Positions 6,575-61,996 of a stretch of DNA of 64,000 nucleotides are shown piece after piece. The translations under genes were made by a program, and so were the position numbers. Within the stretch, counting starts at the first letter, position 1. The number at the start of each line of letters is the position of its first letter. Origin of the DNA: Polytrichum commune. Taxonomy: Eukaryota; Streptophyta; Polytrichopsida; Polytrichales; Polytrichaceae. Under the pieces are notes generated by a model. The model was given only the letters and a program-made list of their open reading frames with translations, was not told the DNA's origin and searched no databases. The DNA lies in NCBI GenBank assembly GCA_950295325.1, contig OX485809.1, positions 21,080,001-21,144,000 of the forward strand. Reading direction: 5' to 3'.

Positions 6575-6740
6575 TATTGAACATTCTCACGCCAAGATAT
6601 TAGTAAGCGCACTTGAACGCCAAGTGTCATGAGGTGACACTAATGGTGAAGTTGTTGGTCATTAGTGTAACCTAGCATATGCCTAAAAATAGGGTAAGTG
6701 AGATTATTATGCATGTGGCACTAAATACCATAAATGGTGT
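6575..6740 (+). repeat. ~150-bp dispersed repeat, copy 1 (partner at 33775-33925)
   Basis: Shares CCAAGATATTAGTAAG, GCACTTGAA, GTGTCATGAGGTGACACTAAT, ACCTAGCATA and CCATAAA in the same order with 33775-33925. The inner GTGTCATGAGGTGACAC is itself nearly palindromic. The origin is unknown; a small MITE is possible. Confidence 0.6.
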
Positions 6741-7987: not shown

Positions 7988-8371
7988 ACACAAAAATATG
8001 ATATTCAGTGTCACCAATTCTAATTGTCTTGCTTAATAATGATTGTAAATCGTAGTATAGTGACACCAACACTAAATGTTAACCCAACATTATTTGTCAT
8101 TCCTTGTAGATTTTTGGGGGATTATAGATTTACGGTGTTGCAATTACTATTACTTACCAATTTTTTTTTCATTCAAATTTCAATCATCCATGACAATATT
8201 TCATCACAAGTTGCTGACAAGATAAGGTAAGGTTTTGGCCAACGGATGAATTCATCCATCATCCATGACAGTATTTGCAAACTTATTCATAAGAAGTGCC
8301 ATCCTAAAAGTTTCCATAGTCACAAAAAATACCATATTACAATGTATGGTAATATGATATTTAGTGTAGTG
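7988..8371 (+). mobile_element. CACTA-like MITE, copy 1, nested at the LINE 3' part
   Basis: The right end is TAGTGTAGTG and the left end carries AATATGATATTCAGTGTCACC, forming an imperfect inverted repeat of the type CACTACACTAAATATCATATT. The interior (AACCCAACATTATTTGTCATTCC, GTTGCAATTA, ATCCATGACAATATTTCATC) is shared with 16372-16747, 40432-40746 and 61592-61996. LINE-derived sequence lies on both sides, so this MITE inserted into the LINE. No target duplication was confirmed. Confidence 0.65.
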
Positions 8372-9449
8372 TGTGTGAGATGCCATTGGGATAGGGTAGT
8401 AGGTTTTTAAGGCTTTAGTTCCCCATTTATCTTTCCTTGTAGTGATTTTGGTATTAACAATGGTGTGAATTAATTTACCACTTGTTTATGTAGTTTGGGG
8501 AGTAGGATTTACTGTGGGGTGGGTTCTAAGGGGTGTTGTTATCTTGATTTGGGTTGTATGTAGGGGAAGTTAGTTGTTGGGAAAGAGGTTGGAGGCTTGT
8601 TGTAGGGCTTCTTTTATGAGTTTTGATGATGCTTTATATTTCTATCAAAATTCCTGAGGTGTGAGGATTGATTTCATGTTTGGGTGTTGGATTTGTTGTA
8701 TAGTGGTGATGTTGTACATGTATAGGTTATTGAGGTAATTTTTAGGGTTTACTTGTTGTTCTTAAGTAAGTACTATGAATGTGGGCGTGTTGTGCCATAT
8801 TGTCTCCATTGGGGTTCTTGTGAGGGGGGATTCTTTACTAGTGATGTTAATGTGGATTTCGTATTCTCTATCAAGCATGAACATGGTATAGTGATAGGTG
8901 ACATGGAGCATGCTTGATATTTGAGTGTTGGGAAGATGAGTGGATCCTTTGTATCTTGCAAGTATGTGTTTTTTATAGGCCTTGGTATATTTTACCAAGT
9001 TATCCTTTGGTCATTTAGTGCTCAAATACGTTGCTAGCCTATGCAATTTACGCAGTCTTGTAGTAGTGAGGTGGTGTAGATTTTGAAATCTTCTAGTGGA
9101 AGGTGGTTGCATACATCTTTGGTTAGTTTGTTGAGAATTTTATCTAGATTTTTAATGTCTAGTTTGAAGATGGAAACCAAGTTATAGGCATATGCGATTC
9201 TTGGCTTTAAGACAATATTACGCATATGTAATTTTGTTTGATGGTAGCCAAGGATGCTTTGCATTGTTTTTGGGCTTTTTATGTGGTAATGTCTTTTTGT
9301 AATATCTATATGAGCGATGGGACTCAATGTAGACCTAGGTATGTGTATGGTTTGTTTTGTGATAATAAGGGGAAGTCTTTTCCTTTGTATCCTAATGTGG
9401 TGAGCTTGGATGGAGGCTTTGAGTGTGGCATGTCTTAGTTTGGATTTGT

Positions 9450-15600: not shown

Positions 15601-16371
15601 ATCAATTTACAAAGCCTTTGGGCCCCACACTAGGTGTGAACTGAATGTGGACCAAGAGGAATGACTATGCACCAAATAATGAATGTGTTGGTTTTTTAAA
15701 TATATGCGCAAAAAGGGCAGTTTTGAAAAAAATAAAATCATGTTTGACCATTCTTTTGACTTCTCTTCTCTTCATCCTCTCTTCTTCAAAACGAGATTTC
15801 ATTCAAAATTTACTATACCAATATTTCTCTGCCATGGGCCCTTACCTTTTTCTACCATAGCACCTCTTTTGCCTCTCCCACCGCAAAACCCATTGGACCA
15901 TGTCAGTGGATAATGTAGGTCTTAAAACATGTCTTCTGGGAACCTCGAACTCCATGGTCACTACGGCATTCTTTTTCCTAAGTGTCAACTAAAGTGACCT
16001 TGGAACAAGTTCAACAACCAATCACAAATTTTACAGGACCTTGGAACGACTTCATGATCCATGGTGCAAAAAGCCCCTTAGAAGTCCAACCCAAGGACTT
16101 GGGAAGTATGTCATGGGCAATCGAGTTAGATATGTTTATTCAACTATATAGAGCATTGTGCCCATCTTTGCCAAATGGGTATCGGAAATTTGAACATGAA
16201 GTGGCTCTTAGAGTGCAGTTCCATTGAGACATGGAAGCGTAAAGTTGTCGAAATTGTCTCCAAGAGTATTAAAATTGGATAAACTTTCCACGCCTCCCAC
16301 CTTGTAGTAGTATAGGTGTTACAAAACGGGAAAAAAAAACCCTGAGATTCAACTATCAAGCCCCTGTAATA
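12641..16371. other. No gene seen; microsatellite and G runs
   Basis: Non-coding by eye. Contains (TC)n near 14264-14285, a G run at 14645-14655 and an A-rich stretch near 14850. Words around 13080-13160 match the dispersed repeat family seen near 40300 and 42290. The 126-codon minus frame at 14010-14390 includes a microsatellite-encoded repeat and looks spurious. Confidence 0.5.
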
Positions 16372-16747
16372 CACTACACTAAATATGATATAAAGTGTCA
16401 TATGGTATTTAATGTCACTATGTTAACTTTTCGGATGACGTTTTGTATGAGTAAGTGAACAAATACTGTCATGGGTGATGGATGAGTTCATCCGTTGGCC
16501 AAAACCCTATCTTCTCTTGTCAGCAACTTGTGATGAAATATTGTCATGGATGATTGAAATGTGGATGGAAAATCACTTGGTAAGTGACGATAATTGCAAC
16601 ACTGTAAATCTATAATCTTCCCAAAAAATTACAAGGAATGATAAAATAATGTTGGGTTCACATGTTAGTGTGGGTGACACTAACCTGTGGATTACAATTA
16701 GTGTTGAGCAAGACAATTAGAATTGGTGACAATAAATATCATATTTC
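16372..16747 (-). mobile_element. CACTA-like MITE, copy 2
   Basis: Begins CACTACACTAAATATGATAT and ends with an inverted, decayed AATAAATATCATATT. The interior is the reverse complement of copy 1 at 7988-8371 and is closest in wording to copy 3 at 40432-40746. CACTA-type termini suggest a non-autonomous relative of an EnSpm/CACTA element. The target duplication is not clear. Confidence 0.65.
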
Positions 16748-17950: not shown

Positions 17951-19080
17951 GTATCAAAAACAAAAAAACATTATCAAATATCCACACCTTATAAGTAATA
18001 AGAAAATGGGAAATCTTCATCACATATATATGAATGATATGGATAGAATCGAAAAGAAAAGAACTGTTCATGTCCACTACTGGTATGAAGTGAAAACCTT
18101 TTTACAGCTCGGGTACATGTAATGAGGATTTTATGTTTTTTTGAAGAAATTTATTGAGAAGTAGGGTGCAAGTGAGAAAGGGTGATTTTTTGTTTCTACG
18201 TACCAGTTGGGTCTATTTAGCATTCCTTTTATTTGTATGCGTAGGTGAAAATTTCCAATTATCGATATAGTGTTAAGATGGTGTTGATCCAGATGATGAC
18301 TCGAGTAAATGAGGATTCTCCGATCTTGCGATACTGATTAAGATTCAAAGTACGACCAATATTAAAATGTTGGTACTAGTCACGTAAGTCCTTTGATATC
18401 GTTATTCATTTTGTGAGTTGATACCATGCATTTACCTATGTGCCAATCCAACATTTATGTGGGTTGGTTACTGGGTTGGACATGGTGGGCATCGCTCTTT
18501 TTGACTAGAAACTTGCATGGGAATGGTGTATGGCAAAATTTTGAAATTGAAAATGGACATGAAAAGGACACAAAAGAGACGCTTACATTGTGTACTATAT
18601 ATTGTACACAAGGAGCCTTGCTACAGGCTGTACTAGGGTTCCTCGTGTACGATATTGAGAGTAGTGCTCACTATGTCTTGTGGGCCGTTTGTTGTGGTCT
18701 ATATTTGTCGTGCTCATGTGCAATGAAAACACGACATGTCATTGACATGGGGAGCGCTGTAGTGAGATTGGACTAAGTGCTTAAAATATAGACACCAAGG
18801 TGAATTATGTCCTTAACACAATGGGAAGGGTCTTTGTGACCACTTATAACTTTTGCATCTCAACTTGGATTCTACAACTTGAAATGCCAATCTTTATTAT
18901 TTACAAATACTTAGATGGATGAGACCATTCCCAAGTTGATCAAAAAACAAGAGTTGTAAGATAATTGCATGCTATTTGGATACTTTTCACTCTGCATTCA
19001 CTACTTGCATGATATGAAACACACAATTAATGTGAGATGATGAGCAAATCCAAATTTAACATGTAGCCATTAGCCTCATA
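17951..19080. other. No gene seen; one dispersed-repeat copy
   Basis: AT-rich. The stretch 18829-18945 is a copy of the ~110-bp dispersed repeat (TATAACTTTTGCATCTCAACTT followed by an ACTTGAAATGCCAATCT block). A 116-codon frame at 18426-18776 has no recognisable motif. Confidence 0.5.
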
Positions 19081-19800
19081 ATGTTTAGAGTTGAAAGTGT
19101 GATAGTCGCCCAAATCACTCAATTTTTCAAATTAAGATATGTGCAGTACATGGGTTACCGTAGGAAAAATATCTTATGGCCCCTCACACATCAAAATCCC
19201 AACTGCACACTGTGCCATAACAATGATAGAGACACATGGCATCACCTCCTATCAACATGCACAAACCCATACAGGAAGGGCCTAAGAATCGCACAACACA
19301 ACAAAGTGGTACATCTCATTGCCCAAACACTACAAGCCAACAAAGATACCTGGTTCTTGACACTGACCAATGCAGGCAATCTTAACAACAAACCCCCCGA
19401 CCAAACAATCCCGAACTGGCTCCTCAAATGCACATGTTCACAAACAACATGCCAATGCCAAGCCAAATTAAGACTGGACATCTTATGCTTAATAAGAGCC
19501 CCGAACCAAACACATACACCATTATCACCCTCTTTTGCACTCATAGTCCAACTCATAGAATTCACATATTGCCATGACAAACTCCCTGATCAAGCCCTTA
19601 CACACAAGCATACCAAATACGACCCACTAATTAACACCATACAATACCAACTCCCTCATTATCATCACAGCCAAAGTAAGAGGTGCTATACACAAACATT
19701 CCATCAATAAACTTGCCAATCTAAAAATCCCGAAATCAAACATTAAAACCCTCATGAAAAATATACACCAAAACGCCATCAATTACCTCATATAACTTGT
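19081..19800 (+). mobile_element. LINE 3' end: zinc-binding and restriction-like endonuclease domain
   Basis: A 209-codon open frame (19081-19710) encodes the C-terminal end of a non-LTR retrotransposon protein. A CCHC zinc-binding site is visible (C42, C45, H55, C60), followed by QHN (72-74), the position of the RHN motif in RLE-type LINEs, then IPNWLL (110-115), RLDIL (131-135, where RPD is usual) and IEFTYCHD (159-166) with a following HTKYDPLI. In the family this is the PD-(D/E)xK nuclease that nicks the target; here the usual Pro of RPD and the Lys of ExK are replaced (RLD, EFT), so activity is doubtful. No reverse transcriptase lies upstream, so this is a 5'-truncated copy, the usual fate of LINE insertions. 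The frame is A/C-rich, unlike its surroundings. It may belong to the same family as the minus-strand LINE at 7.25-12.64 kb. Confidence 0.8.
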
Positions 19801-26343: not shown

Positions 26344-27360
26344 GTCAGGCATAAGTCCCCACTTAACTGCTAGGCAATGAAGGACGCCGTCACAAGGCAA
26401 AGCAAGGAGGTCGTTATCCTGGCATAAGATCGGTATTTGTTTTGGAAGAGAGCTCACACCTCAATTTTTGCCGGCCACAATCTCTCACAGTTGCTCGTGG
26501 TTCAATCCCCCACATTTGCTTGTGATTCAATCGCCCCTATAGTAATGGAAAACCATGTACTCAAGCTACATGTTTGGGTGTTTGGCGCGGTCGATTGGGG
26601 TATTTGTGGTCTTTGATCACTCAACTTTGTGGGTTGTTTTCCTTCTGTTGCTATATATTTCGGTAGAGCCATTTGGGTGCACAAGACATGGTGGTGCAGC
26701 AGTAGTTTGGCTTGAAGTCTGCCTGATGTGAATGAACTAAATGCCGAGGTCGTCGTCCTCGATGAGTAGTATTCCACAAACATATGGCAACAAGGCTTTT
26801 ATGAATTGTACTGGTTTCGCTGCTTGTTGGGTGCAGGGGGTGAATCAACCACATTTGTTGTAGCAGAGCCTTGCTCCGGAAGTCTGTTTCAGGTTCGCAA
26901 ATGAGCTCGCGGGGGTATGATCAAGGTGAAGGGCATCGTCTCCCTCTGCTCCTTCTCACTCTTTTCCTCCATGTATTCGTGCACAGAAACTCATTGCGTG
27001 AATTACTCATTTGCCCACGTAGCTAGTTGCGGGGGTAGGTATTGCCGCCAACTAGCGATCAGAGTTTGCCAGGATCAAACTAGTCGAGTTACAAGAGGAA
27101 TCGGGGACGCTGCAAGAGTTTTCAAACCGCCCTGCAAAGGGAAGCATAACACCACTGAACATGACATGCATGTGGCAATTGCAATTCCGAGAGCGTTGAC
27201 AGGTGCCCAAGGACAGCATTCAATGCCAAATCTTTAGCTCCGAGAAATGACGGGAACAAATCGGGCCCAAACCCTAATTTATTCTCGGCCCAACTGAATG
27301 TTTGGGATCTACTACTCTATTTTCAAGATTAATAAGATCACTACGTGACAGTTGATGGCA
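26344..27360. other. Moderately GC-richer stretch, no supported gene
   Basis: Base composition is more balanced than its neighbours between about 26380 and 27250. A plus-strand frame (26917-27237, 106 codons, several Cys) and minus-strand frames overlap here. None has a domain I recognise, and no promoter or splice context supports them. It could be a decayed gene. Confidence 0.4.
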
Positions 27361-27580
27361 GTGTCCGGGGAGATTTTTGGGCATAATCGGTCGATATCCT
27401 AGTGCCCACACCGGTGACATGTGGACATCTTTCGGTATTTCTTTATGAAATTGGGGTATATTCTATAAATTTCTCTAAAATGATCGGTAGTTTTCCTGAA
27501 GTCTTCTTGAACATCTACCGGTTATTTCTCAAACTCAACCGCTTCATCTGTAACTAGCAGCCGGTTCTCCCCATTCATGG
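27361..27580 (-). mobile_element. Mutator-type MITE (ACCGGTT family), copy 2
   Basis: Flanked by a perfect 10-bp duplication GTTGATGGCA (27351-27360, 27581-27590). Ends GTGTCCGGGGAGA and (inverted) CCATGAATGGGGAGA form the terminal repeat. The interior carries several CCGGTT words and matches the other copies in reverse. Confidence 0.8.
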
Positions 27581-27590
27581 GTTGATGGCA

Positions 27591-31708: not shown

Positions 31709-31934
31709 GCAATGAAAGGTGACAACCGACCGCTAGTTACAAATGAACCCTTTGAGTTTGAGAAACGACCAATTGAAGTTCAAGACTTTAAAGAAAATTA
31801 CCCATCATTAGAGAGGAATTCGTAGAATATATCCTAATTTAGAAATGTAAAACCGAAATATGCTAACATGTAACCAGTTGGACTTGGAAACACTAGGATA
31901 TCGACCGATTATGTCCAAAAATCTCCTTGGATTG
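31709..31934 (+). mobile_element. Mutator-type MITE (ACCGGTT family), copy 3
   Basis: Flanked by a perfect 9-bp (up to 11-bp) duplication TGCAAAAGG (31700-31708, 31935-31943). Interior blocks CTAGTTACAAATGA, GAAGTTCAAGACT and TAACCAGTTGGACTTGG match the other copies. Several CCGGTT words have decayed to CCAGTT or similar. Confidence 0.75.
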
Positions 31935-32080: not shown

Positions 32081-32304
32081 GTGTCCGGGGAAGATGTTGG
32101 GGCATAATCGGTCAAGATCCTAGTGTTTCCAAGTCCATCCGGTTACATGTTAACATCTTTCGGTTTTTCATTACTAAATTAGGGTATATTCTATGAATTC
32201 CTCTAAAATGATTGGTAATTTTCTTTAAAGTCTTGAACTTCAATTGGTTATATCTCAAACTCAATCGGTTCCTCTCTAACTAGCAGCTGGTTCTCCCCGT
32301 TCGT
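32081..32304 (-). mobile_element. Mutator-type MITE (ACCGGTT family), copy 4
   Basis: Inverse orientation to copy 3, only about 145 bp away. Starts GGTGTCCGGGGAAGA and ends GGTTCTCCCCGTTCGT. No matching flanks could be read, so the target duplication has decayed or a rearrangement removed it. Confidence 0.65.
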
Positions 32305-35415: not shown

Positions 35416-35814
35416 ATTCTCGAGGCAATCCAATGGCCAAAATTTCCTTGTGACTTGGAAGTGTCCAAAATTTAGGCCATATACCTTATCGGAAGTTTGA
35501 AGCGGAGAGAATAATCTGATCGCTTTGGTCGGCGTGCATGTGTAAACATTTACTTACGTGCATTCGATTGCACTGGTGAAATCTTGTGGGATTTCTTCCC
35601 CATTCTATCCAAAACTACAGGTTTATACTGTTGTCTCTGCTTAATTAAGTCAGCGAATCGGAAACATCCCCAGACTTCTGCAGCCTGTGGATTCATCTCT
35701 TGCGAGATTTTGATTGCATGCATTTTTCGGGTAAGTAGCTATCGCCAGCGAATTTGAAAGTCGTTTGATCATGCATGTGTCTGCAGCTACAGAATTTGCA
35801 TGTAATCTGCAACC

Positions 35815-36039
35815 AATGAACGGAGAGAACCGGCTGCTAGTTACAGATGAACCGGTTGAGTTTGAGAAATCACCGGTTGAAGTTCAAGACTGCAGGAAAA
35901 TTACCCATCATTTTAGAGGAATCTATGGAGTATACCCCAATTCAATGAAGAAAAACCGAAAGATGTCAACATGTGACTGGTTGGACTTGGAAACGCTAGG
36001 ATCTAGATCGATTGCGCCCAAAAATATCCTCCCACACTC
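35815..36039 (+). mobile_element. Mutator-type MITE (ACCGGTT family), copy 5
   Basis: Flanked by a 9-bp duplication with one mismatch (TCTGCAACC at 35806-35814, TTTGCAACC at 36040-36048). The best-preserved interior, with ACCGGTTGAG, ACCGGTTGAAG and GACTGGTTGG. A 116-codon frame (35765-36115) reads through it, and copy 1 has a related open frame, but copies 3 and 6 have stops there, so I do not call a gene. Confidence 0.75.
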
Positions 36040-36924: not shown

Positions 36925-36932
36925 TCTCACGT
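36925..36932. repeat. 8-bp target-site duplication, left copy (TCTCACGT)
   Basis: TCTCACGT immediately before the terminal repeat at 36933 and again at 38328-38335 immediately after the other end. Confidence 0.85.
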
Positions 36933-38327
36933 CTCGGGGGGTGCACTGTACTAAACATGTACGAGTATACGTGAGTGCACAGGAGGGGTATTGATTTGGA
37001 CCTTGCCGTATTATGTATACATATGGTATACATGTTATAATTTATAGTTATGTACATATATGGAAGGCCTTTAAAAAGTATACAATAATTGTACTTGTAT
37101 GGTAGTGTTACTATACTACATATCATAAGTTTTCATATTGGATGAAATTAGGATTAACTAGGATTAACGATTTTTGTTAGCAACCTTATAGGGTAGTATG
37201 AACCATGTACAAGGTATCAAGGTAATATCGGGGAAAGAGGCAGTATTAGGGTTATGAAATGATTCGTTCAGCTCAAAGTAACAAGGACCCTTTTCCCCTC
37301 CCATCCCTAGGTTTTTGTTTTCTCTTTTTGTCGAGCGCTGAAGGTTTTTGTTTTCTCCTCTTGCATAGCCTGCTTCTTTTGCCGACAACTGCTTTACTTT
37401 TCCTTCTTTCACCTGTTGCTTCCAGCGCTTCTCAGCGTCCCTGCGGTTACTGTTGCCGTGGGAATCACCGAAAGTCCTGACATTGTCATGGCCTCGTTCT
37501 GAAATTCCCTCTTTATCAAATGCAAAGTCAACTATGGCTTATGTAATGGTAGGGGAGTCTAGAATTTTTAAAAGTACACTTGTTAGTCAATTGAATGGCA
37601 ATCCTTCTTTGTGTAAAGATCGGTTGACTTGAATTAGAGCTGGCATATTATATATGAAGCCTAAACTCCTGAGTGCTAGAAACCATGACAATTTGTTAAA
37701 GCTTGGTTGTGACTGTGTTGTGTGTTTTTTGAACACACCTGAAGCTAAAACTGTGAAAAAACGAGGTAGGCCAAAAAATCTACTCGAGTTAAAGTTTGGT
37801 TTGTTGGGAGAGTTTATAGGATGCGGAGGAAGTTTGGTAATCGTGGGGTGGAGTATAGGGATCCAATTGACTTGATGGACCGTCCATCAAACGTGGAGAT
37901 TGGTTTATGTTGGTATCAAAAAGGGGCTAACAACAAGTGGACATATGATCTTACTGATCATTTGATGGTAGACTTAGAGACAATAATTGCATTGGCTATA
38001 ATGACATATATTGGTGAATCAAATATTTATGAGTTACATCCAGGAGATGAAAAAGTTTTCAACGACTTTGCTGATGAAAGCTAGGATATTTTGTTATACA
38101 TATTATAGGGGTTGATTATTGTTCAAAAATATATTTGTATACTTATGTTAATGACTATATATGAATGGATGTTTTTTTGTGTATATATATTGTTACTTGT
38201 ATATTTATTGTTGCAATTGTATGTGTATTACTTCATTTCACAAAAAATAACTTGTATATAGGGGGTTTTTAAAGTATGCAGTGAACGCACATGATTCTAG
38301 GTTTTAATGAAAGGTGCACCCCCCGAG
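36933..38327 (+). mobile_element. CTCGGGG-family DNA transposon, copy 1 (1,395 bp)
   Basis: Perfect 14-bp terminal inverted repeats, CTCGGGGGGTGCAC (36933-36946 and inverted 38314-38327), flanked by a perfect 8-bp duplication TCTCACGT. The 8-bp duplication is what hAT, P and Merlin elements make, but the C/G-run terminus does not match a consensus I know for them. The interior holds a broken ORF (37501-38084) related to the one in the neighbouring copy. No transposase of normal length is present, so it is either a deletion derivative or a carrier of captured sequence. Both ends being readable with an exact duplication suggests a fairly young insertion. Confidence 0.85.
37501..38084 (+). pseudogene. 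Broken ORF carried by the CTCGGGG transposon, AT-hook-like motif
   Basis: Two frames make one degraded protein of about 190 residues. The first frame runs from about 37501 (SLSNAKSTMAYVMVGE, RIFKSTLVSQLNGNP) through a TGA at 37630-37632 that replaces a probable CGA, to a KKRGRPKN motif (about 37757-37780) of AT-hook type. Near 37790 the protein continues in another frame: WFVGRVYRMRRKFG, PIDLMDR, then VDLETIIALAIM and ESNIYEL, to the stop at 38082-38084. The second part aligns with the 114-residue ORF at 38689-39033. The stop and the frame change make this copy dead, unless an unrecognised intron removes them. I do not recognise the family. It may be the C-terminal part of a larger transposon protein or a captured host fragment. 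Confidence 0.6.
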
Positions 38328-38335
38328 TCTCACGT

Positions 38336-38448
38336 GTCCAATTGCAGGTCATATTCTTCAAGTTGCATCTTGAGCTACAATATATATACAATCAGGTTGC
38401 AAATCAAAGGTCACATATTTCAAGTTGCATCTCGAGATAAATGTCACT
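38336..38448 (+). repeat. Two diverged tandem units between the transposon copies
   Basis: TTCAAGTTGCATCTTGAG and TTCAAGTTGCATCTCGAG, each preceded by GGTCA, are repeated about 60 bp apart. The stretch lies between the two CTCGGGG elements and is the only host DNA separating them. Confidence 0.6.
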
Positions 38449-38456
38449 GTACATGT

Positions 38457-39766
38457 CTCGGGGGGGGGGCACTGGCGAAAAACGTAGGAACTACGTGCGA
38501 TAAAATATAGGGTCTTGTATAAAAATTTGGCGTAAAATTTGTAAATTATTAGATGTAGTATAGGGTGCTTTGGGATTGTGAAACATGATTATATGTAATA
38601 TAGCATTTGACAAAACATGATTAAATTACCTAAGTGGTACATATAAAATAGCATGGAGAAAAAACAATAGTTTCAAAAATTAAATACTTTGCAACCAAAA
38701 TATGGCATGTTCTATATAGGAAGGGTTCAAAAAATAAGGGTGAAGGTTGGTACTAAGTGGGGCAATTGTTGGCAACCCATTGACTTGATGAAACGTGCAG
38801 TCCAGAACGGAAATAGAGAAACGCTCTTCCCAACTGCTATGGCTTACCTCCATTGGTTCAAAAAACAACCGGGTCTCAACAAATATAAGTATGTTGAGAG
38901 TGACTGTGTGTGGGTTGATGTGGATGCTATTAACTCAATTGTGTCTCTACTATATGAATCAACTAGCAAAATCTACACCTTAGATGAGGTAGATGCAAAC
39001 TCATTGAGCGAGTTCATTTCAAATAAAAAATAAAACCTACTAAATTTGTACTATCTCACACATGTGGAGATATAATTTGGAAAAGGGCTGAATGATCATT
39101 AGTATACCTTAAAATCTGTAGTAGTCATTTCAATTCGAGTACCCTCATATCTCCCACATGTGTAAATGGTAGCCTAGCTAGTTTAGGTGGATTTTGCTTG
39201 CATGGCATGGGATTTTCCTCCAATGTGTAGGATTGGAAGATCAAGGCATCAATTGTAGGGATTCTGCAAACCTTGTAAATGTGACTTTGAGACACATGTG
39301 GCTAGCCTGTTCCCTAAGACCTCAAGGTTTCTAACTGTGTTATCCAACACAACTTTTATTCGTTGGCTCGTGTTGCTTAATGACATGTAATTGCAATATT
39401 TTGTTGTTATTGTTTAGTGTTTTGCTTTGCCCGGACTTCAGTGTGACCCTGAACCCTAAACCCTAGTAAATGTTTGTTTCTCTTACTCTGTACATGTGCT
39501 TCTAACGAGAATTCTACTGTATCATACACTTTAAGGAATGGGGGCAATCAGGGGAAAAAAAATACATATAAGTAATATAGGGTACCATAAAATCAACCAT
39601 CCAAGAATTTATAATTACCAATAGGGTGCAAATAATCACAACAATTTACCATTATTTCAAAAATTAGCATCCCTTATAATCCTTTCTCATAGGTAAATAG
39701 CCCCCATTTTAATAGGTCATTATCGCAGGTGTATGCAAAATATACAAGGGAGTGCCCCCCCCCGAG
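38457..39766 (+). mobile_element. CTCGGGG-family DNA transposon, copy 2 (1,310 bp)
   Basis: Starts CTC followed by 10 G and CAC (38457-38472); ends GTG, 9 C and GAG (39752-39766). Both sides carry the 8-bp duplication GTACATGT (38449-38456, 39767-39774). The repeated word TATAGGGT appears near both ends (38506, 38557, about 39578). The interior encodes one intact small ORF (38689-39033) related to that in copy 1. The last 700 bp show no coding sequence but contain a small inverted pair (ACATGTGGAGATAT near 39060 and ATATCTCCCACATGT near 39148), perhaps a nested tiny element. Confidence 0.85.
38689..39033 (+). CDS. 114-residue ORF of unknown family inside the CTCGGGG transposon
   Basis: Intact frame from ATG at 38689 to TAA at 39031-39033. 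Visible blocks: YIGRVQKIRVKVGTKWG (about residues 9-25), QPIDLMKR (29-36), WFKKQP (54-59), DCVWVDVDAINSIVSLLY (70-87), SKIYTLDEVD (91-100) and a short lysine-rich end. The same blocks in the same order occur in the broken ORF of the neighbouring element (GRVYRMRRKFG; PIDLMDR; VDLETII; ESNIYEL). There is no signal peptide, membrane segment or metal-binding cluster. It corresponds only to the C-terminal half of the copy-1 protein, so it may itself be a fragment that stayed open. It is too short for a transposase. Function unknown; the reading frame is real but expression is unproven. Confidence 0.5.
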   Translation: MQPKYGMFYIGRVQKIRVKVGTKWGNCWQPIDLMKRAVQNGNRETLFPTAMAYLHWFKKQPGLNKYKYVESDCVWVDVDAINSIVSLLYESTSKIYTLDEVDANSLSEFISNKK

Positions 39767-39774
39767 GTACATGT

Positions 39775-40431: not shown

Positions 40432-40746
40432 ACACTAAATATGAAAGTTAGTGTCATATGGTCATGAATGATGGATGAATTCATCCATTGGCCAGAATCC
40501 TACCTTCTCTTGTCAGCAACTTGTGATGAAATATTGTCATGAATGGTTGAATTTTGGATGAAAATTCACTTAGTAAGTGAAAGTAATTGCAACACTATAA
40601 ACCTATAACCCTCAAAAAAAGTTTACAAGGAATGACAAATATTGTTGGGTTAACATTTAGTGTTGTTGACACTATACCACGGTTTACAATTAGTATTGAG
40701 CAAGACAATCATAATTGGTGACACTAAATATGATATTTAGTTTAGT
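40432..40746 (-). mobile_element. CACTA-like MITE, copy 3
   Basis: Begins ACACTAAATATGAAAGTTAGTGTCATA and ends with the inverted GGTGACACTAAATATGATATTTAGT; the interior is very close to copy 2 at 16372-16747 (CTTCTCTTGTCAGCAACTTG; GTGATGAAATATTGTCATG). Confidence 0.65.
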
Positions 40747-43533: not shown

Positions 43534-44123
43534 GGGTTACTTCACACGTGAGCCAAGAGCCGTGACCTTGTAATGGTGAGGACCCTTGACTCTCATCCAA
43601 AGGCCATACCATGGGTGTTTGGAAGCCATTTTATGTAGTCGCGGGTCCTCAAGCACAGTGTGAAGTGAGAATGGACCATGTTGCAGGACCATTGCATATT
43701 TTGTTGGCGGAAAAAGAGGGGAGAATTTGGTTTAATATAATATGTCTCAAACTCTATCAATGTAAGAGAATTACTTGATGGTGTTTGTCTATCCTGGAGT
43801 CTGTTCTGGAATTTGCTTTGCAATCTATTCTGAAATCTATCATGCTAGAAAAAATGTTTAAAAAAATCATGGTCTCCCAGAATTTGCGTCAGGCCCGCCT
43901 CTTGGAGGTGGGCTTGACAGAAAATTTGGGAGACCATGAAACCTTATGCATAGTCCGCCATGTAGGACTCCATGTAGACTTTTCATCCATGAAGTCTTCT
44001 TTGAGCCTTTAGGCCTTCACCTTTGTGTGTGAAGTGAACTTGGATGGTCTCCGCCCTTTTGACCAATGAGAGCTCTTAGATTGCAATGGTCATGGGCCTT
44101 TAGTCTTGTGTGTGAAGTGGCCC
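43534..44123 (+). mobile_element. PIF/Harbinger-type MITE, copy 3 (best-defined), TAA duplication
   Basis: The left end GGGTTACTTCACACGTGAG and inverted right end GGGCCACTTCACACACAAG form the terminal repeat, which continues to a CCGTGACC / CCATGACC block. TAA flanks both ends (43531-43533, 44124-44126). Related to 829-1156, 25090-25488, 44127-44604 and 57804-58281. It contains no coding sequence. Small frames inside it are not genes. Confidence 0.75.
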
Positions 44124-44126
44124 TAA

Positions 44127-44604
44127 GTTACCCGTGACCATTACAATTCAAGCACTCTCATTGGTGGAAAAGACAAAGCCGGTCCAAGTTCGCTTCACAT
44201 TACACTTGAGGGACCAACGGAGTATATGAATACAAGATGGATGTAAAGTCTACATGGATTCCTACATGGCATCAAATGGATCATGTTTCATGGTGAATTG
44301 GACTATTTTCAAAAACCACCTCTTGGAGGTAGGCCTAACACAAAACCTTTGGAAAACCATGGCACTCTGAATGCTCACAACCGTTGATTTATTCTATTTT
44401 ATCATGTGTGAGGACCCGCATGAATAGAAATTCATTGAGATAGCATTGATTGAGGGCATGGTCACATATGACTTCACACTACACTTGAGGGTCCGTCACC
44501 ACATTACATGATTTTGGAGGTTTCTTGGGATGGCCTTTGGACACTTTCTTTTGGGCTCTCACAATTTCTTGGTCATGGGTCTTCGCTCGTGTGTGAAGTG
44601 ACCC
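44127..44604 (-). mobile_element. Harbinger-like MITE, copy 4, inverted and adjacent to copy 3
   Basis: The reverse complement closely matches 25090-25488. The right end reads GTGTGTGAAGTGACCC. It starts directly after the TAA of copy 3, so the pair forms a large imperfect inverted structure (43534-44604). Its own left terminus is missing. Confidence 0.6.
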
Positions 44605-50523: not shown

Positions 50524-50800
50524 CAAAAACTTCGATTGCGCCGAACCGGGTAGTTTCTGATTTTCTTAGCAATTGGGAATGGCACAAGTAGTGAATACAA
50601 ATTATAGAGTCTTACAAGTCAATCAATAATCGACGTACATTGCCACCTCATCACCTGCATGAAACATTACATGTGAACAGCCTTCACAATCCCTGGAGAG
50701 CGCTCTTAATGAAAAAAGTTTGTCAACTTTCTCATGGACCTCGATTTGAGTCAAAACTTTCCATCACGTATGCATGGCTTTGTAAAGTGAATATCTTCAG

Positions 50801-51140
50801 CTCGGGGGGGGGGGGGTAGTCATTGGTTGGAGTAGCAATATACGTGCGAACAAATGATAGGGTATTTTAAAAACATGGGGGCAAAAACTTATAAATGGAC
50901 TTAAGAGTAATATAGGGTATCAAAAATGACATTGGACATCTTTAAAGTACTATAGGGTATGGAATTATAAGTAATTTGGAATTATAAGTAATGCAAGCCA
51001 TTTTTCTATTAACCCAAAGTAGAAAATTACACAATGATAGCATGTGAAAACAAGAAGAGAATTGAAAGCAATACCCCCCTATAAAATAGTGGTTATTCGC
51101 ACCTATATCCTTAATTTTTAAACACACTGACCCCCCCGAG
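50801..51140. mobile_element. CTCGGGG-family MITE (340 bp), copy 3
   Basis: Starts CTC plus 13 G (50801-50816), ends CCCCCCCGAG (51131-51140), and has a perfect 8-bp duplication ATCTTCAG (50793-50800, 51141-51148). The interior has several ATAGGGTA words as in copy 2 (38457) but no ORF of note. It is a short derivative moved by the same activity as the larger copies. Confidence 0.85.
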
Positions 51141-51248
51141 ATCTTCAGATGTGAAACCCTTACGTGCTCATCAAAGAGCTTGTAGTAAACGAGCATGCTT
51201 TACTTCCCGAGCACTCCGGATGAATAATCATGTTGCACAATCCAATTA

Positions 51249-51275: not shown

Positions 51276-51478
51276 TTTGGCCACAACAAGGCCACATGCC
51301 GAGTGAGAACCTGCTGAACTGCAGGGTAGAGTTGCTGCTCTTGCCATGCAAAAGATCAGGTGGGGTTGGGATATGGCAATTAAGTAAAGGAGCCTTGCGG
51401 CATATCCTTTAATATCATCTATGTCCGTAATGCATGATCGTAAAGCTGGAGGCCGCGTAAAGAGGAGGTGCAGGCATG

Positions 51479-51707
51479 CAATGATTGTGGAGAACCGACA
51501 ATTAGTTACAAATAAACCGGTTGAGTTTGAGAAATAACCGGTTGAAGAAGTTCAAGATTGCAAGAAGATTACCGATCATTCTAAGGGAATTTATAGAATA
51601 TACCCCAATTTCATAAAAGGAAAACCGGAGGATGTCAACATGTAACCGGTTGGACTTGCAAACACTAGGATCTCAACCGGTTATGCCCAAAAGTCTCCCC
51701 AATCACT
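51479..51707 (+). mobile_element. Mutator-type MITE (ACCGGTT family), copy 6
   Basis: Flanked by a perfect 9-bp duplication GCAGGCATG (51470-51478, 51708-51716). The terminal inverted repeat is CAATGATTGTGGAGA / (inverted) AGTGATTGGGGAGA. Contains four ACCGGTT words. It has two stops in the frame that is open in copies 1 and 5. Confidence 0.85.
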
Positions 51708-51855
51708 GCAGGCATGTTGAGAGGGTTTGATTTGTTGAGGTGGATGAAAGTTACGTGGATGGATCCACCTAGAATGAGCGTATTTAAGATGCCGTGGTCT
51801 TGGAGGTCATCATCCAATGCAATTAGTTGTCCACAGCTCTCAACCTTGCCACTGA

Positions 51856-56788: not shown

Positions 56789-56965
56789 CTCGGGCGGGGA
56801 AGGGGGGGGCACTAGAAAAAAACATACAAACTACATGCGATAAACTATAGGGTCTCACAATTACATATATTATAGGGTGCCCTAAGTGTGTGAAATGTGA
56901 TTATGTGTAATTTAGCAATTGATAAAATATCATAATATTACCTAAGTGGTACATATATAATATTA
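56789..56965 (+). mobile_element. CTCGGGG-family transposon, left end only (copy 4)
   Basis: Starts CTCGGGCGGGGAAGGGGGGGG then CACTAGAAAAA. The next 170 bp follow copy 2 (38457 onward) closely: ACATGCGATAAACTATAGGGTCT, TATAGGGTGCCCT, GATTATGTGTAAT, ATTACCTAAGTGGTACATAT. Similarity stops at about 56965 and no right terminus with CCCGAG was found downstream, so the rest is lost or this is an aberrant insertion. Confidence 0.65.
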
Positions 56966-61591: not shown

Positions 61592-61996
61592 TAATATAGT
61601 AAATATTGTATTTAGCATCACCCATCTATTTGCCTTGCTCAATACTAATGGTAAACCGCCCGTGTAGTGTCACCAACACTAAATGGTAACCTAACATGAT
61701 TTGTCATTCCTTGTATAAAAACATTGGGCATTGTAGATTTACAATGTTGCAAGTGTTGTCACTTACTGAATGAATTTTTATCCAAATTTGAATAATCTAT
61801 GGCAACATTTCATTACAAAATATATTAGGGAGCCTAGTATATCAAACTTTGTTTCTATGAATTGACATTTGGATGGAACTGAATGCAGGTTGAGATGACA
61901 ATATACGTGAACTTATTCATAGAAAGTGTCATTAGAAAAAAAAACACCACAATGCATAACATACCATACAACAATAAATACAATATTTAATGTAGT
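61592..61996 (+). mobile_element. CACTA-like MITE, copy 4, most diverged
   Basis: Carries TGTAGTGTCACCAACACTAAATGGTAACC (61656-61684) and TTTGTCATTCCTTGTA in the same order as copy 1 at 7988-8371. The termini have decayed to TAGTAAATATTGTATTTAG and (inverted) TACTACATTAAATATTGTATTTA. Confidence 0.6.

Follow-up and report, generated by a model that had tools for sequence, protein, structure and literature searches.

The window, a stretch of 64,000 nucleotides from Polytrichum commune, was found to contain three elements (F1, F2 and F3), each of which starts with CTC-G(n), finishes with C(n)-GAG and lies between perfect 8-bp direct repeats (Table 1). These duplications had been claimed as perfect in the initial annotation and were confirmed by direct reading at all three elements. 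Direct reading also gave the termini of F1 as CTC-G6-TGCAC on both sides, forming a 14-bp perfect inverted repeat, and those of F2 as CTC-G10-CACT and CTC-G9-CACT, with an inverted repeat of 12–13 bp. The termini of F3 are CTC-G13-TAGTCATT and CTC-G7-TCAGTG, their mutual agreement being limited to CTC-G(n); the earlier description of the termini as CTC, a G run and GCAC does not extend to F3, which is without the GCAC step. The heptamer CTCGGGG occurs eight times in the window against an expected 1.53, a count reached by none of 100 shuffles, and six of the eight occurrences are ends of F1, F2 and F3.

Other repeats were also observed in the window, namely a dispersed repeat with four copies 76–86% alike (7994–8372, 16371–16746, 40461–40738 and 61600–61818), an approximately 215-bp repeat present at least five times, in both orientations (27358–27584, 31709–31927, 32081–32302, 35810–36038 and 51478–51709) and a 362-bp imperfect palindrome (43933–44294) showing a 69% match to its own reverse complement. 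A 216-aa open frame at 19060–19707 has a Cys/His pattern and appears LINE-like by eye, with no Pfam match.

Table 1. Features of F1, F2 and F3 and a related end, in positions of the window.
Feature	Position	Strand	Basis
F1, non-autonomous element, 1395 bp	36933..38327	+	read directly
F1 target duplication, left, TCTCACGT	36925..36932	.	read directly
F1 target duplication, right, TCTCACGT	38328..38335	.	read directly
Subterminal motif TACGTGAG, 8/8, F1 left	36968..36975	+	end alignment
Weak subterminal motif CATGTGCG, 6/8, F1 right	38286..38293	-	end alignment
Transposase C-terminus remnant in F1, two frames (L033 residues 603-705, 694-796)	37501..38081	+	protein match
F2, non-autonomous element, 1310 bp	38457..39766	+	read directly
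F2 target duplication, left, GTACATGT	38449..38456	.	read directly
F2 target duplication, right, GTACATGT	39767..39774	.	read directly
Subterminal motif TACGTGCG, 8/8, F2 left	38492..38499	+	end alignment
Weak subterminal motif CACCTGCG, 6/8, F2 right	39724..39731	-	end alignment
Open frame in F2, C-terminal ~115 residues of transposase	38671..39033	+	protein match
F3, MITE, 340 bp	50801..51140	+	read directly
F3 target duplication, left, ATCTTCAG	50793..50800	.	read directly
F3 target duplication, right, ATCTTCAG	51141..51148	.	read directly
Subterminal motif TACGTGCG, 8/8, F3 left	50841..50848	+	end alignment
Subterminal motif TAGGTGCG, 8/8, F3 right	51098..51105	-	end alignment
Decayed F2-type left end, without partner	56789..56962	+	sequence comparison

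Near-identical relatives of F1, F2 and F3 are numerous and are found genome-wide. Searches of the 407.8-Mb genome, in which the window lies on contig C7, with the three elements gave 41, 43 and 40 scored matches from 1304, 1716 and 1579 first-look candidates, respectively, these being rough figures and not copy counts. With 28 bases of the F1 left end and up to two mismatches allowed, 399 sites were detected (203 forward and 196 reverse), with none for a reversed-pattern control. A sample of 63 copies (60 fetched and the three of the window; 17 F1, 18 F2 and 28 F3) was used to examine the target duplications. An exact 8-bp duplication was present in 51 of the 63 (F1 16, F2 14, F3 21). This count has two biases: the calling script kept whichever pair agreed best from a few candidate end positions, and the copies were top-scoring search matches. 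Six further copies matched at seven of eight positions (F1 0, F2 3, F3 3), and for the last six no duplication was called (F1 1, F2 1, F3 4). All six of the uncalled copies (L015, L038, L040, L052, L062 and L069) have an altered end, and in at least four of them (L040, L052, L062 and L069) an 8-bp duplication can be seen by eye beside it, outside the count of 51. The duplication extended to 9 bp in none of the 51 exact copies, the targets of which lean to the weakly palindromic [GC]TTTAAA[GC]. On average, copies diverged from the majority sequence of their family by 2.05% for F1 (17 copies), 1.01% for F2 (18 copies) and 1.03% for F3 (28 copies), in a sample that consists of the top-scoring matches to the window copies and is biased to similar ones. 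A genome search for the terminus with its flanking duplications had been proposed in the initial annotation, where copies ending at other points were named as evidence against a real DNA transposon family; the exact duplications in 51/63 copies place the ends where they had been drawn and support such a family, its ends being CTC-G(n) and its target duplications 8 bp long.

Empty sites lacking a single 8-bp target had likewise been named as evidence against the family. In locus L035, a 349-bp F3-type element is nested in an F1 copy with GATCCAAT on either side, and its flanks, when joined, equal F1 at 40 of 40 positions, which gives an empty site with a single 8-bp target. It should also be noted that three F1 copies (L035, L036 and L037) carry a G-run element after this same target, the inner right end of the nested element being unrecognised by the script in L036 and L037. 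This common insertion could represent either repeated insertion or one insertion copied with its F1 host.

Longer relatives were reached through a chain of searches in which the protein of the F2 tail led to longer frames in L021 and L022, with a piece of broken transposase in L022 then giving 150 matches. Open frames of 1493–1549 aa were found in ten rows of this 150-match list, with one row having an internal stop. Eight long loci were fetched from the list and four more distant members (L031–L034) were added. The full-length relatives in the genome measure 5.8–8.3 kb. Both ends and an exact 8-bp duplication are present in L028 (6880 bp, single open frame of 1543 aa), L029 (5802 bp, single open frame of 1549 aa) and L025 (6351 bp, frame of 1493 aa); the long-ORF members that the initial annotation had suggested looking for, as possible autonomous elements, do exist in L028 and L029. 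L030 has both ends, one of them altered, with a duplication matching at 7/8. The frames of L026 and L027 are intact, with no end found for the former and one for the latter, and the transposase frames of L023 and L024 are broken. Among the distant members, L031 and L032 are 26–30% identical to the other members and have CCCGGGGTGGCA ends, exact 8-bp duplications and frames of 1189 and 1114 aa, respectively, plus a second frame upstream. The frames of L033 and L034 are interrupted, with one recognised end for L033 and none for L034.

Two further elements were observed on these loci. At 6691–6976 of L031 there is a 286-bp MITE related to F2, with CTC-G6 ends and the exact duplication CCAACAAG. 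At 1670–4425 of L021 (C5:37330169–37332924) lies an element of 2756 bp with CTC-G(n) ends and a 7/8 duplication. It contains a frame of 233 aa with similarity to a 2OG-Fe(II) oxygenase (PF13640, E 0.033, below the cut-off) that appears TET/JBP-like by eye. Of the 29 genomic matches to this frame, none is closer than 100 kb to a transposase match in a by-eye comparison of the two lists.

The 3′ DNA of the window elements is shared with the coding relatives. Positions 568–1395 of F1 (its 3′ 828 bp) have 96.5% identity with the 3′ end of L033, positions 246–1305 of F2 have 96.3% identity with the 3′ end of L023, and positions 173–340 of F3 (its last 168 bp) have 84.7% identity with one end of L027. 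Since this DNA is common with coding relatives and the frames of F1 and F2 correspond to the C-terminus of the transposase, the three elements are regarded as internal-deletion derivatives. For L023 and L033, which among the coding relatives are closest to F2 and F1, respectively, no left end was found in the fetched DNA and the frames are broken, so that an intact helper was found for neither F1 nor F2. Capture of a host gene was considered as the origin of the frames in F1 and F2 and was rejected, these frames aligning to the transposase over its final ~115 to ~195 residues. The F2 tail modelled with AlphaFold, the F1 tail being the sole partner sequence, had a mean pLDDT of 41, and the model was set aside. 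F1, F2 and F3 are probably, though by no means certainly, non-autonomous members of one cut-and-paste lineage in a land plant, with a transposase having a P-type DDE core. Four SAM_LFY matches above the cut-off indicate a land-plant host, as do TTTAGGG repeats at two of four contig ends inspected (of the other two, one was N and one lacked them); the seven large contigs and several LFY copies might suit a moss.

Five of the full-length proteins have 47–58% identity to the sixth, that of L028. In the N-terminal third of the latter, Cys/His clusters are seen by eye near residues 262–303, 374–403 and 524–545. Its candidate catalytic motifs are AEDETK (D758), HASDGDSRRR (D877), HDQDFIHN (D924), DYVDIF (D1026) and GSDACEIFFSK (E1119). 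The position of D1026 is not D in L031 and L032; D1116, three residues before E1119, is invariant where present and its position matches D528 of P as given in the accessible text of one paper (PMC7776569). A Pfam scan of the long frames (the six full-length and the distant proteins) gave chance-level matches and no transposase family. No hAT, Merlin/IS1595-type, MULE or P domain appeared in the Pfam scans of the transposase frames, and none of the six full-length proteins had a Pfam match to the THAP domain. The best transposase-related Pfam match, HTH_Tnp_Tc5 on the L022 piece (E 0.11), was below the cut-off and was taken as chance. A profile of the six proteins had no match among PDB sequences at E up to 10, and the protein of L031 alone matched an oligoribonuclease (E 0.45), also taken as chance. 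A search with PF21787 gave no matches in the genome, but also none in 14 controls. Viral contigs gave 79 pattern stretches, none of which was confirmed, and plasmid records gave no match to half of the L028 protein, both being unlikely places for a plant protein. The candidate transposase is presumed to have an RNase-H fold.

To compare this protein with known transposases, sequences of the P and Hermes proteins were used that had been checked against PDB records. Residues D230, D303, D339, D444 and E531 of P were assigned to D758, D877, D924, D1026 and E1119 of L028, in a motif test with free choice among 50 conserved acidic columns, the five candidate columns having been proposed by eye beforehand. 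At those columns the ungapped P windows rank 1, 2, 5, 1 and 1 of ~1,525 positions. The five-motif score was 19.12 against 13.08 ± 1.39 for shuffled windows, with none of 2000 shuffles as high, and 2 of 2000 draws of other acidic windows of P were as good. For the P triad alone (D230, D303 and E531), 4 of 2000 shuffles and 3 of 2000 other windows were as good. A loose-gap alignment to P had a z of 2.96 (0.33 for Hermes), which none of 60 shuffles exceeded, with only D230 and D444 in register, and a forced full hhalign alignment placed D230, D303, D444 and E531, but not D339, opposite the candidate columns. Neither a strict-gap alignment to P (z 0.34) nor hhalign with single sequences (E 0.075 and 0.31 for P, 0.28 and 0.30 for Hermes) was significant. 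The spacing from the second D to E is 242 in L028, the values for P and THAP9 being 228 and 239 according to the part of the source drawn on (PMC8230255), whereas that from the first to the second D is 119 in L028 against 73 in P and 70 in THAP9. The comparison with hAT, P and Merlin advised in the initial annotation came out as P-like in the order of acidic motifs, with neither hAT nor Merlin in Pfam; the likeness to P extends to motif order but not to significant whole-length similarity. From the sequence we read the protein as having a P-like core, which suggests a kinship of the transposase to P.

A tentative alternative, of lower probability, is that the protein belongs to a new DDE superfamily distinct from P, in which case the shared motif order would reflect no more than an RNase-H architecture of general type that includes an insertion domain. 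The lack of any Pfam family and of any PDB profile match at E up to 10 would agree with this, as would the non-significant whole-length comparison with P, the differing N-terminal domains and a protein twice the length of the P transposase (751 aa). However, none of 2000 shuffles equalled the fit of the five ordered motifs to P, the fit includes D339 and D444 from outside the catalytic triad, and the target duplication is of 8 bp as in P. It is conceivable, if doubtful, that a new land-plant cut-and-paste superfamily is represented here, with C(T/C)CGGGG ends, a fixed subterminal TASGTGMG site at those of CTC type, 8-bp duplications, a transposase of ~1500 aa outside the Pfam transposase families, and elements whose intactness and likeness would allow recent movement. 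A divergent hAT element is highly improbable: the length of the duplication (usually 8 bp in hAT, in the consulted portion of PMC12730594), the commonness of hAT in plants and the second rank of the Hermes E572 window at E1119 would suit it, but Pfam shows no hAT domain, the Hermes triad (D180, D248 and E572) fits at chance level (142/2000 shuffles and 161/2000 other windows as good) and the D180 and D248 windows fail to rank at D758 or D877.

Inside the ends, a motif with the consensus TASGTGMG was detected at 7 or 8 of 8 positions in 12 of 14 ends (F1, F2, F3, L025, L028, L029 and L030), at position 34–42 and in 10 of the 14 at 34–36; this count is not blind, as the motif was derived from the very ends counted. 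The remaining two ends match at 6/8 at positions 35 and 36. Shuffled ends gave a count of 0.22 on average and at most 3 (2000 rounds). In two ends with G runs of 13 and 15 the motif lies at 41 and 42. It is missing in the ends of L031 and L032, and matches are weak in all but one of the ends of the L021 element and the L031 MITE.

The G run itself was G6 in 31 of 31 clean F1 ends, 8–22 in F2 and 7–18 in F3, as read from assembled homopolymers that may include assembly errors and with ends lacking a clean match left out (F1 3/34, F2 3/36, F3 15/56); a looser script adds two runs of 7 (F2) and one of 5 (F3). The drift in run length between copies reported in the initial annotation is seen in the long F2 and F3 runs but not in F1. 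Because G6 runs are constant while longer runs vary, the drift is likely to reflect homopolymer slippage of long runs after insertion. As the motif stays at 34–36 in 10/14 ends with runs from 6 to 10, it is the outer distance that looks constrained and not the run, and the distance from terminus to binding site may be fixed. TASGTGMG is a putative transposase site and probably a better candidate than the G run for the recognition site. There is very little likelihood that the enzyme actively recognises the G run as an element of variable length that is altered during transposition: G runs do occur at every CTC-type end examined and often differ in length between the two ends of an F2 or F3 copy, but the uniform G6 of F1 and the placing of the motif (34–36 with runs of 6 to 10, 41–42 with runs of 13 and 15) speak against it.

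The explanation preferred here, and considered reasonably probable as a whole, is that of a P-type DDE transposase of ~1490–1550 aa and candidate autonomous members of 5.8–8.3 kb. Those members with CTC ends would encode the transposase in a single open frame, with its N-terminal Cys/His clusters, P-type DDE core and a distinctive C-terminal domain. The protein is predicted to bind TASGTGMG, ~35 bp inside each end; once bound, it would pair both ends and cut at the outer CTC. The cut ends would be joined to target DNA with an 8-bp stagger, and gap repair would produce the 8-bp duplication. Internally deleted copies that keep both ends could be mobilised in trans and then multiply, and one such protein may move all three families F1, F2 and F3. 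The G run would be unmeasured by the enzyme, with runs of ~8 or more slipping after insertion.

In the part of a 2022 land-plant review drawn on here, six TIR superfamilies are listed (Tc1-Mariner, hAT, Sola, MuDR, PIF-Harbinger and CACTA) and P is absent (PMC9033089). P is named among the superfamilies in the introduction of another paper, the available portion of which reports none in the plant studied (PMC11939994), and plant MITEs are sorted into five superfamilies, P absent, in an excerpt from a third (PMC12550479). In searches of the open-licence literature, no listed title dealt with CTC-G(n) transposons or with a land-plant P-like transposon. If true, the abundance in a plant of a superfamily that is P-like or new would change the list of land-plant superfamilies. 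Because their duplications are of 8 bp, such MITEs might readily be classified as hAT, which would hide the lineage. The intact frames, together with the low divergence of the sampled copies, make activity directly testable.

The target duplications of Merlin and Mutator-like elements have length ranges that include or adjoin 8 bp. The present elements differ from both in that no such transposase domain was found in Pfam and in their inverted ends, which are short and mostly G run. With hAT elements (Ac/Ds, Hermes) they share the 8-bp duplication and the many MITEs in plants, but they have no hAT domain in Pfam and the Hermes catalytic windows fail to align. They are unlike P in their protein of ~1500 aa, as opposed to 751 aa in P and without a THAP domain, in their CTC-G(n) ends and in having no significant whole-length similarity to P. 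The absent THAP domain is not decisive against P membership, as this domain is said to be restricted to animal P members in the section of the literature cited (PMC7776569). Features shared with the P superfamily (Drosophila P element, THAP9, zebrafish P-like), as described in the accessible parts of two papers, are the 8-bp duplication, the internally deleted non-autonomous copies and the internal sites near the inverted ends (PMC7776569; PMC8230255), along with the order of the five acidic motifs and the spacing from the second D to E (PMC8230255). The general kind of this lineage is known; its transposase is unclassified and P-like, and its host is a plant.
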